Source: Methanoregula sp.
Lineage (GTDB): Archaea; Halobacteriota; Methanomicrobia; Methanomicrobiales; Methanospirillaceae
NCBI GenBank assembly: GCA_026394605.1
Contig: JAPKXY010000030.1
Location: 1 to 64,000, forward strand
Length of the DNA: 64,000 bases
Direction of reading: 5' to 3'
How positions within the stretch are numbered: position 1 is the stretch's first letter; each line of letters starts with the position of its first letter. The position numbers and the translations under genes were made by a program. Of the stretch, positions 2,420-33,262 are shown piece after piece. The notes below the pieces were generated by a model. The model was not told the DNA's origin and ran no database searches. It worked only from the letters and a program-made list of their open reading frames with translations.

Positions 2420-5400
2420 TGCCCAAGAAAGACCACATCAAAAAAGTGCTGATCATTGGATCAGGCCCCATCCAGATCGGGCAGGCGGCTGAATTTGATT
2501 TTTCCGGAAGCCAGGCGTGCCGGGCGATGCGGGAGGAAGGGGTACAGGTCGTCCTTGTCAATTCCAACCCCGCGACGATCCAGACTGATCCCGAGATGGC
2601 GGATACGATTTATATCGAGCCCCTCCGCGCTGATATCATCGCAAAGATCATTGAAAAGGAGAAACCTGACGGTGTCCTATCCGGAATGGGAGGACAGACC
2701 GGGCTCAACATGACCGCGGAACTCGCTGAGAAGGGGGCACTGAAAGGGGTCGAGATCCTCGGGACCCCGCTTGAGGCGATCTACCGTGGGGAAGACCGGG
2801 AAAAATTCCGCGACCTGATGCAGAGCATCGGCGAGCCAATTCCTAAAAGCATAATCCTCACAAGCCTTTCCCAGATTGATGACGCCATACAGGCTGTCGG
2901 GCTTCCGGCTGTCGTCCGTCCTGCCTATACGCTTGGCGGAGCGGGGGGTGGAATCGGAAAGACGCGGGAGGAACTGATCCGCATTGTCGAGATCGGTCTC
3001 TCCCGTTCACGCATCCACCAGGTGCTCATCGAGGCGAGCGTGATGGGCTGGAAGGAGATCGAGTTCGAGGTGATGCGGGACTCCGCGGATACCTGCATCA
3101 TCGTGTGCGGGATGGAAAATGTCGATCCCATGGGGATCCATACCGGGGAGAGCGTGGTCGTCGCACCGATCCTCACGCTGCGGGACGACGAGTTCCAGAC
3201 GCTGCGGAGTGCGGCGATCAAGATCATCCGAGCGCTGGATGTGCAGGGCGGCTGCAACATCCAGTTCGCGTACCTTGACGGGCAGTACCGTGTGATCGAG
3301 GTGAACCCCCGTGTATCGCGCTCGTCAGCACTCGCGTCAAAAGCGACGGGGTATCCCATTGCCAGAGTTGCAGCGAAGATCGCAATCGGACTCCGTCTCG
3401 ATGAGATCATGAATACGGTCACCGGTTGCACACCCGCGTCATTCGAACCCACGATTGACTATGTGGTGGTAAAAGTCCCCCGCTGGCCGTTTGACAAGTT
3501 CAAAGGGGCGGACCGCACCATCACGACCTCAATGAAGAGCACCGGGGAGGTGATGGCGATCGGGCGGACCCTTGAAGAAGCGTTCATGAAGGCGAAGCGC
3601 TCGATCGACACCGATGTCACCGTCCACACGAGCCATAGTGAGATCCGCATGATCCTCTCACGGCCGACCGATGAACGCTTCCACACGCTCTTCGATGCGT
3701 TCCGGCAGGGCTTTTCCATTGACGAGGTTGTCTCCCTGACCTCGATTACCCCGTTCTTTTTGGAAAAGATTAAAAATATTGTCGGCATGGAGGAGTGCCT
3801 TGCAGCATCCTGCGATCCGGACACTATCATGCAGGCAAAACGGTACGGGTTTGCAGATTACGAGATCAGCAGGCTCTCCGGTAAGCCAGTTGAGGAGATC
3901 GAGGCCGTTTCAGGAATGCCTGCCTACAAGATGGTTGATACGTGTGCCGCGGAGTTTCCGGCACGGACTCCCTACTTCTACTCGACCTGCGAACCGTTCT
4001 GCGAGATCGAGCCCACAGATACCCAGAAAGTGCTCATACTCGGCTCAGGCCCGATCCGCATCGGGCAGGGGATCGAGTTCGATTACTGCACGGTCCATGC
4101 GGTCAAAGCGCTGCGCGAGGAGGGCGTTGAGGTTCATATCGTCAACAACAATCCCGAAACGGTGTCTACCGATTTTGACACGTCAGACCGCCTCTTCTTC
4201 GAACCGATGCAGCTGGAAGACGTGGCAAACATCTTAAAAAAAGACCACTATCAGGGCGTAATGGTCCAGTTCGGCGGGCAGAACGCGGTCAACCTCGCGG
4301 TCCCCATTGAGCAGGAGATCAGGAGGCTGGGTCTTGCAACAAAAATTCTGGGAACGAGCCCGGATGCGATGGATATTGCGGAGGACCGCAACCGGTTCAG
4401 CGTCCTTCTCGACAAGCTCAGGATCCCCAGCCCACCCAACACCTCCGCGTATTCCGAAGGGGAGGCACGGGAGAAAGCTGAAAAGATCGGGTATCCCGTG
4501 CTTGTCCGCCCCTCGTATGTACTTGGTGGCAGGGCGATGGAGATCGTCCACGATGCAACCGAACTTGAGCTGTATATGAAGGAAGCGGTGCGGGTAAGCC
4601 GGAACCACCCGGTACTGATCGACTCCTACCTCCAGAATGCGATCGAACTTGATGTGGATGCGGTCTGTGACGGCGAGGAGGTGCTGATCGGCGGCATCAT
4701 GGAGCACATCGAGCAGGCAGGTATCCATTCCGGGGATTCCGCGTGCGTGATCCCAACGCAGTCCCTGTCACCAGCGGTAATTGAGAAGGTCCGGGACCAC
4801 ACCCGCAGGATCGCGCTCGCGCTCGGTGTTGTCGGGCTCGTAAACCTCCAGCTCGCGGTAAAAAATGATATTGTCTATGTGCTCGAGGCAAACCCGCGGG
4901 CGAGCCGGACGGTACCGTTTGTCTCCAAGGCAACCGGGCTCCCGATTGCAAAGATTGCCGCGAAGGTAATGATCGGGAAGAAACTGCGCGACCTCGGCTA
5001 CCGCGAACGGGAGATCAGCCATGTGGCTGTCAAGGAAGTACTGCTCCCATTCAACAAATTACTGGGCGTGGATACGATGCTCGGTCCTGAGATGAAGAGC
5101 ACCGGTGAAGTAATGGGAATTGACTACGACTTCGGGCTCGCGTATTACAAGGCATGCATTTCGGCGGATAACGAACTCCCGCTCAAAGGCAACATCTTTG
5201 TTTCGGTCAACATGGAACAGAAGGACGAGGTAATCCCAATCGCACGGAAACTCCGCGATCTCGGGCTGATCCTGTACGGCACGGAAGGAACGGTGGAGTA
5301 TCTCCACGAAGCCGGCGTTGAAGCGCACCTCGTGCGCAAGGTAAAAGAGGGTTCACCCAATGTCATCGACATGATGCGGCACGGGGAGATACGGCTCATC

Positions 5401-32197: not shown

Positions 32198-32473
32198 TTA
32201 TTCCTTCTTCTTTGCCTTGATGACGCCATTCTCAAAGGTATAAGGAAAGCTTTCATCATAACGCATCTGGCATTTGAGAAGCGATTCCCCGATGCTTAAA
32301 ACCCGCACGCCCGTGTCCATCCATTCGATCAAAAAACTCCTTTCAAGACGCTGGAGGGACGAAGTGACTGTTATAAGATCAAAACCGCTGGCTGCGGCAA
32401 GGCTGTCCGGTGCTCTTGCCGTCTGATGTAACATGAGGTGGTAGATGATCCAGTCGATGTCCTCGTCCTTCAC
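32198..32473 (-). CDS. Small winged-helix protein
   Basis: A 91-residue protein beginning at GTG (KDEDIDWIIYHLMLHQTA) with a helix-turn-helix-like pattern, SLAAASGFDLITVTSSLQRLERSFLIEW, that suggests DNA binding. It lies three bases upstream of trm56 and is probably first in that operon. I do not recognise a named family. Confidence 0.7.
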   Translation of the reverse strand: MKDEDIDWIIYHLMLHQTARAPDSLAAASGFDLITVTSSLQRLERSFLIEWMDTGVRVLSIGESLLKCQMRYDESFPYTFENGVIKAKKKE

Positions 32474-32598
32474 CTGTAATCATTCCATGCTCGCGTCAAT
32501 ATAATTTTTTGTTTGGGGGAACTATAGTCAAAGACCTTACTATTGATACTTATAATGTCTTGTCAAATGGTGGTTTCTGACATCCGGAAGAAACAGCC

Positions 32599-32673
32599 AT
32601 GAGAAGAAACCGCAGGGTTCTTCGAAATATTCTGAAAGAATACGAGAAGAAGCTGAAAGATTCTTCGAATTAG
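32599..32673 (+). CDS. Putative 24-residue basic peptide
   Basis: ATG to TAG encodes MRRNRRVLRNILKEYEKKLK plus four residues: a lysine/arginine-rich amphipathic helix. GGAAG lies about ten bases upstream. It sits alone in a stretch of 370 bases without other genes, between trm56-side genes and the hairpin cluster. A short frame of this kind can arise by chance; composition and the possible ribosome site are the only support. Confidence 0.35.
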   Translation: MRRNRRVLRNILKEYEKKLKDSSN

Positions 32674-32731
32674 TGTTAACGCAGCCAATTCCCTATCGGA
32701 CCAATCTTTTTCTCTTTTGAGACTACAATGG

Positions 32732-32801
32732 GTCCCCAGTTATCGACTGGGGACAGTGGCAATGATGAATTGCCACTTGGTCAAGAATGTTGCGTTCAAC
32801 A
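32732..32801 (+). promoter_or_regulatory. Three consecutive perfect hairpins upstream of 32846
   Basis: Three inverted repeats occur in a row: GTCCCCAGT-TATCG-ACTGGGGAC (32732-32754), AGTGGCAAT-GATGA-ATTGCCACT (32755-32777) with no gap between the two, and TGTTG-CGTT-CAACA (32788-32801). Stems are 9, 9 and 5 bp without mismatch. They end about 45 bases before the next gene. They may form a structured leader or a stable small RNA. Confidence 0.55.
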
Positions 32802-32845
32802 CTATAAATGCAAAAGAGTATTCTTATTGGCAAGCGACCAATCGG

Positions 32846-33262
32846 ATGTGGATGGATTCATTGTCATCTCCCCCGTCTTACCCAGAGCTGGTCGAGCTTG
32901 CAGAAAAGCTTCTGGACGAGTGCGGGGAGGATGGGGGGCTGCTCTCGGAAAGGCTTGAAGGGCTCTCCGGTGCGGTTCGCGATGAGATCCTCGTCTCAGA
33001 TCGCCTCAATGCCTTTCAGACATTTTACTATTTTTTCAAAACATATCCCGATAACATCCACATGGAACGGCTGATGCTTCAACCCGCATCGGCATTGCTC
33101 GATGGTGTGTTAATTGATGAGATCGATCTCCTTGAGCTTATTTTTGCTATCGTCGATCACGAGGCTGTCATGGTGGTCAGCGACGGAGAACACGCGCTTG
33201 CCACATTCCTTGGAACTGATGCGTATCGTGACGCACTTACATATATTCATTCGGCCCTATAA
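32846..33262 (+). CDS. Conserved hypothetical acidic protein
   Basis: A 138-residue acidic, mostly helical protein (MWMDSLSSPPSYPELVEL at the start, later LNAFQTFYYFFKTYPDNIHM and LLELIFAIVDHEAVMVVSDG). No motif identifies a family. The frame is open further upstream through the hairpin cluster, but those codons do not look like protein. It is convergent with the UPF0280 gene, overlapping it by six bases. Confidence 0.6.
   Translation: MWMDSLSSPPSYPELVELAEKLLDECGEDGGLLSERLEGLSGAVRDEILVSDRLNAFQTFYYFFKTYPDNIHMERLMLQPASALLDGVLIDEIDLLELIFAIVDHEAVMVVSDGEHALATFLGTDAYRDALTYIHSAL

Follow-up and report, generated by a model that had tools for sequence, protein, structure and literature searches.

A probable MITE-like mobile element in Methanomicrobiales with palindromic modules

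Related repeats and the proposed assignment

BOX elements of pneumococcus and BIMEs of enterobacteria are mosaics of hairpin units set between constant ends, and the number of units is variable. TA-target bacterial MITEs include Correia/NEMIS of Neisseria and RUP of pneumococcus, for which IS630-Spn1 is the proposed partner (PMC2229807). As far as the available portion of that source describes them, these repeats are small, non-coding and mainly intergenic, carry terminal inverted repeats that end in TA, can give rise to strongly paired transcripts and exist as internal length variants (PMC2229807). For archaea, the available portion of PMC3852290 lists, for Methanosarcina mazei, an IS630-linked MITE of 89 bp whose repeat measures 16 bp, together with 19 MITE-like repeats that have no autonomous partner.

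The window analysed here, a 64-kb stretch of Methanoregula DNA, contains a repeat that is very probably a Methanomicrobiales mobile DNA element, MITE-like and non-autonomous, whose building blocks are palindromic modules. Like BOX elements and BIMEs, it has repeated hairpin units in variable number between constant ends; unlike them, its constant ends are transposon-like (TATAGT/ACTATA) and its target is TATA-like. The traits listed above for Correia/NEMIS and RUP, from small size to internal length variants, recur in the present element (PMC2229807, as far as available). It differs from those repeats in its archaeal host, in its counted copy number of 1-9 per genome and in its long forms of several hairpin modules; no partner transposase was found for it, and no sequence match to Correia/NEMIS or RUP was established. 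The absence of an autonomous partner is shared with the orphan archaeal repeats of PMC3852290. The archaeal MITEs described there are from different genera, however, and in a comparison by description only, the available portion of that source makes no mention of hairpin-module growth, which is a less usual feature for a MITE. Among the publications consulted, including the available portions of PMC2686161, PMC2229807, PMC3733652 and PMC3852290, no mention of this repeat was found, and the family seems to be undescribed, though its kind is already known. The assignment accounts for the hairpins to which an earlier note had drawn attention, disposes of a spurious small ORF and a spurious RNA-leader candidate, and puts on record a methanogen repeat family that is mobile and hairpin-modular.

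Hairpins and architecture of the element

Hairpins 1 and 2 (Table 1) are perfect 9-bp stems with 5-nt loops and abut with no gap, exactly as the earlier note had stated, and their arrangement is real and non-random. Perfect hairpins with stems of 9 bp or more and loops of 3-8 nt number 6 in the window; 30 first-order simulations gave between 0 and 4 (mean 1.5), and an abutting pair arose in 0/30 of these. A third perfect hairpin, said to follow 10 bases later, proved to be a stem of only 4 bp (GTTG-CGTT-CAAC, 32789-32800), and in the fold its bases pair with 32671-32683 as part of the outer stem of a larger structure. The 221-nt region folds with z = -6.1 (0/200 shuffles were as good), and both strands of the element fold about equally.

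When copies are compared side by side, they have a common architecture: TATAGTCAAAGACCC...GGGTCTTCTC, which forms the left hairpin, is followed by optional M2/M3 modules and then by a core of the pattern AGTGTTAACGCA...GACCAATC...GATTGGTC...TGCGTTCAACACTATA. The core comprises 90 positions closed by a 13-bp stem, that is, it is surrounded by a 13-bp inverted repeat; the inverted repeat at the element ends themselves is short. In other copies the left hairpin reads AAGACCC/GGGTCTTC or AAAACCC/GGGTTTTC, and the left hairpin is of the reverse-complement type relative to M3. The short form of the element (118-134 bp) consists of the left hairpin and the 90-position core. Long forms measure 284 (window), 289, 292 and 462 bp, their extra hairpins being placed either between left hairpin and core or inside the inner stem of the core. 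M2 is found in C20, G001, G004, G006 and G005 copies and is absent from short copies. Hairpins 1 and 2 are extra modules of the inner stem, on its 3' side. One G005 copy has a hairpin resembling hairpin 2 (GTGGCAAT...ATTGCCACTTGG) at the equivalent place, and another inserted hairpin pair is common to G005 and G004 copies. As expected of a MITE, the element is short (118-462 bp), repeated and without a protein of its own, and is bounded by terminal inverted repeats, TATAGT...ACTATA.

The 24-codon ORF reported in the earlier note does exist, but it consists of two copies of a hairpin module and a small hairpin in codon reading, and in the paralogue G000:C20 the reading ends after 10 codons. Judged from its sequence, the ORF is a by-product of the repeat modules.

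Table 1. Features of the element and its surroundings in the window
Feature	Position	Strand	Basis
Whole element, TATAGTCAAAGACC ... TGCGTTCAACACTATA, 284 bp	32523..32806	+	ends aligned with other copies; spacer compared with congeners
Left hairpin, AAGAC/GTCTT in the window copy	32530..32562	+	comparison of copies
Optional hairpin module M2, TGGTGGTTTC...GAAACAGCCA	32568..32599	+	comparison of copies
Optional hairpin module M3, GAGAAGAAACCGCAGGGTTCTTCGAA	32601..32626	+	direct repeat with 32644-32669
Second M3-type module, GAGAAGAAGCTGAAAGATTCTTCGAA	32644..32669	+	direct repeat
24-codon ORF, judged to be M3/M3 modules read as codons, not a gene	32599..32673	+	not kept in C20
Core of element, covariance-model match of 67 bits	32669..32806	+	
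Outer stem, 5' arm, TAGTGTTAACGCA	32671..32683	+	fold, covariation
Outer stem, 3' arm, TGCGTTCAACACTA	32791..32804	+	fold, covariation
Inner stem, 5' arm, GACCA	32699..32703	+	fold
Inner stem, 3' arm, TGGTC	32778..32782	+	fold
Hairpin 1, extra module inserted in inner stem	32732..32754	+	short copies lack it
Hairpin 2, extra module in inner stem	32755..32777	+	
CTATAAAT, right terminus and flank, TATA-box-like, probably facing the downstream gene	32802..32809	+	sequence, target-site comparison
Flanking gene, conserved, used in empty-site test	32198..32473	-	
Flanking gene, conserved, hypothetical, 8/8 genus genomes	32846..33262	+	

Copies, empty sites and insertion targets

With 32560-32830 as query, several further places were found in the window's own genome, the matches falling into two conserved blocks with variable sequence between them, and relatives gave more. 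With a covariance model of the core built on 12 copies, this genome (G000) yields 6 strong core copies and a weak seventh at C8, besides echoes on the reverse strand. Across 199 genomes of the order, 5 are represented among the matches listed (E up to 0.01); G001, G005 and G006 fall outside those matches and were found by BLAST and R1. At E up to 0.05, 43 covariance-model matches over 40 stretches were reduced, by dropping 11 reverse-strand duplicates, to 32 distinct core copies in 8 Methanomicrobiales genomes (G010, nine; G000, seven; G004, five; G001 and G005, three each; G006 and G038, two each; G130, one). The nearest copy is in the same genome for 13 of the 32, against 4.9 expected, and for 20 when G004 and G006 are merged; the element has amplified within lineages. 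The copies are divergent, nearest neighbours being 58-90% alike, so no recent jump is seen. Viral contigs gave 0 matches to the element, and a genome-contig search, which may not cover records close to the window's genome, returned a single record, a SPRUCE Methanomicrobiales MAG.

At the window locus the flanking genes lie 373 nt apart, against 85-97 nt without the element in six of seven congeners; the seventh lacks upstream synteny here. Among 10 further insertion sites compared with congeners, seven align through the junction without the element in at least one of them, which brings the empty sites to 8/11 overall. These seven are G004:1890 (empty in G006, at 90%, and in G001 and G005), G004:1654 (G006, G005, G001, G003, G007 and G002), G004:272 (G003 and G007), G004:1848 (G005 and G006, the latter with another insert nearby and the junction intact) and G000:C50b, C50c and C8 (each in at least one congener). 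The remaining 3 are ambiguous or uninformative: at G004:1606, G006 carries a different insert, and C50a and C20 are uninformative for this comparison.

The targets are of A+T/TATA type. At G004:1654 the empty site reads ATCAG-TATA-TTAAAAC-like in four of six congeners; in the occupied state the sequence is TA[...]TATA, with the element between TA and TATA. The TA duplication is cleanly readable at this site only, the other sites being compatible but ambiguous. Two copies interrupt reading frames, that at G004:272 a shikimate kinase frame, which also has a frameshift, and that at G000:C7 a pemK/mazF-like frame (both families recognized by eye).

G006 also contains a repeat of another kind, which forms a GAAGATGTCC..GGACATCTTC hairpin of its own (L193/L205; G006:C288 about 2851-3075 and G006:C306 about 3893-4149). 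Its two positions correspond to, or lie close to, places where G004 carries the element, which suggests shared hot spots of insertion.

Palindromic DNA, rival readings and the mobilizer

Could the repeats be structured non-coding RNA genes or 5' leaders, multiplied by duplication? The earlier note had proposed a structured RNA or leader, and the structure itself is real and larger than was noted then. The covariation that it suggested looking for in relatives is present, with compensatory changes in paralogues as well: 22 of 30 pairs show a Watson-Crick double change among the 32 copies (24 when the 11 reverse-strand duplicate rows are included), and the covariation score exceeds 500/500 shuffles and all slid controls in the 43-row alignment, which was itself fitted to the structure. 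These changes, the stable fold (z = -6.1) and the intergenic position of most copies are what an RNA family would lead one to expect. RNA under selection is also expected to tolerate G-U and avoid A-C. Departures from pairing are nevertheless G-U in 57 and A-C in 48 of 931 pair cells (p = 0.44, 32 copies), and 18 and 19 respectively in the 14 best copies, so that no strand-specific constraint was seen in the 931 cells. Since G-U and A-C departures are equal and the two strands fold almost equally, palindromic DNA is favored over strand-selected RNA; the equality fits perfect DNA palindromes that decay symmetrically. At gathering thresholds Rfam recognizes only two tRNAs in the window, and over the hairpin region it gives only two sub-threshold, chance-level matches. 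Against an RNA family also stand the insertions within two genes, the syntenic spacers that lack the element and its patchy presence (5 of 199 genomes among the matches listed). We consider this reading unlikely, and for the window locus the leader and its tiny ORF found no support: what lies there is a dispersed insertion without counterpart in six of seven congeners, with no wobble preference and no Rfam match. Strong covariation can arise from DNA palindromes, and a comparison of G-U with A-C departures offers a cheap means of discriminating these from RNA.

A REP/BIME-type repeat, moved via single-stranded hairpins by a Y1 (RAYT, IS200/IS605-like) transposase, would suit the opposite orientations of the hairpin units (left hairpin versus M3) and the frequency of solo M3-type hairpins in the order, where they occur in 48 of 61 genomes, with up to 98 in one and a control near zero. 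Y1_Tnp (PF01797), however, was detected in 0/37 genomes of the window's family, including every carrier searched, and the termini are inverted repeats at TATA and not tagged hairpin feet; such an origin is very improbable. Hardly credible at all is a chance neighborhood of several unrelated palindromes, a decayed left hairpin beside a separate core: modules do differ from copy to copy, and a clear left hairpin is missing from some (e.g., G010:140055 and G130), but in short copies the core is immediately preceded by the left hairpin, at a constant total length of 118-134 bp, and the empty sites are without both. An integron attC site came into question because GTTCAAC in the element fits the attC motif RYYYAAC; it was rejected, as the order of the arms does not suit attC and the copies occupy ordinary intergenic sites.

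For the MITE-like element, the termini and the TA/TATA target suggest mobilization of the IS630/Tc1 type. Within the order, IS630 elements in G014, G021, G028, G040 and G057 end in TATAGTTAAGAACC, or in TATAGTCAAGAACC at one G057 end, and the latter matches the left end of the element, TATAGTCAAAGACC, at 12/14 positions. The right end matches IS630 ends only over TATAGT, and G057 has no significant match to the element (E 0.025). DDE_3 (IS630, PF13358) was found in one of seven carriers searched, G006, whose ends differ; most carriers lack the IS630 transposase that an IS630/Tc1-mariner-derived MITE would lead one to expect. In a search of seven carriers, inverted pairs of the left terminus at IS-like spacing were not seen, and two terminus searches for an autonomous copy gave no convincing pair. 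A weak inverted pair in G010 (325943/327578) was discarded, as the 3' part of its interior looks, by eye, like an ordinary gene. Because no autonomous partner sharing the termini was found, the mobilizer is one that we infer, and this transposase may have been lost.

Under this proposal the element would be moved in trans by a transposase, probably one of IS630/Tc1 type, that recognizes the TATAGT termini and inserts the element at the TA of a TATA sequence, which the right end, ACTATA, would then restore. Template switching during replication would keep the palindromes perfect and add modules, and correction of this kind would generate covariation without selection on an RNA. More tentatively, and as a possibility we rate as rather doubtful, the element may grow by capturing or copying hairpins, correct its palindromes by template, target promoter TATA boxes and rebuild TATA with its right end. 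The same extra hairpins recur among different species, and a distance of 37 nt separates CTATAAAT from the start codon (ATG, 32846) downstream. Congeners retain TATA, with conserved sequence after it, at the sites G004:1654 and C8, and in the occupied copies TATA is supplied by the terminal ACTATA of the element. From their sequence, the TATA-like sites are putative working promoters. If this scheme is correct, insertion would leave a gene expressible under new upstream DNA and the covariation would mimic a conserved RNA; an element that restores TATA could rewire promoters without silencing genes.

Several further observations concern the surroundings of copies and related hairpins. Two copies in the window's genome lie by tRNA genes (L029:6929-7061 and L029:13886-14019); one adjoins sequence that matches sR3, a box C/D family, and is probably an intron of a tRNA gene, and the other adjoins tRNA-Ala. 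Many Methanomicrobiales carry numerous solo hairpins of the pattern GAGAAGA N6-14 TCTTCGA, in both orientations (e.g., G032, 98; G004, 50; G003, 39; G050, 29; G054, 27), with a reversed-pattern control near zero, and their stems differ in matching ways (ACC..GGT, AAC..GTT, ATC..GAT). A tandem array in G010 (L039; C1 about 1580090-1580510) consists of about ten 41-bp units, each with one GAGAAGAATCCAGAAGATTCTTCGAA hairpin. Directly after the copy at G000:C8 (L141), a stretch beginning TATAAACAACCTTCATTTTGTGACC is conserved at about 79-90% in six congeners, possibly as an RNA gene or leader that has escaped annotation.
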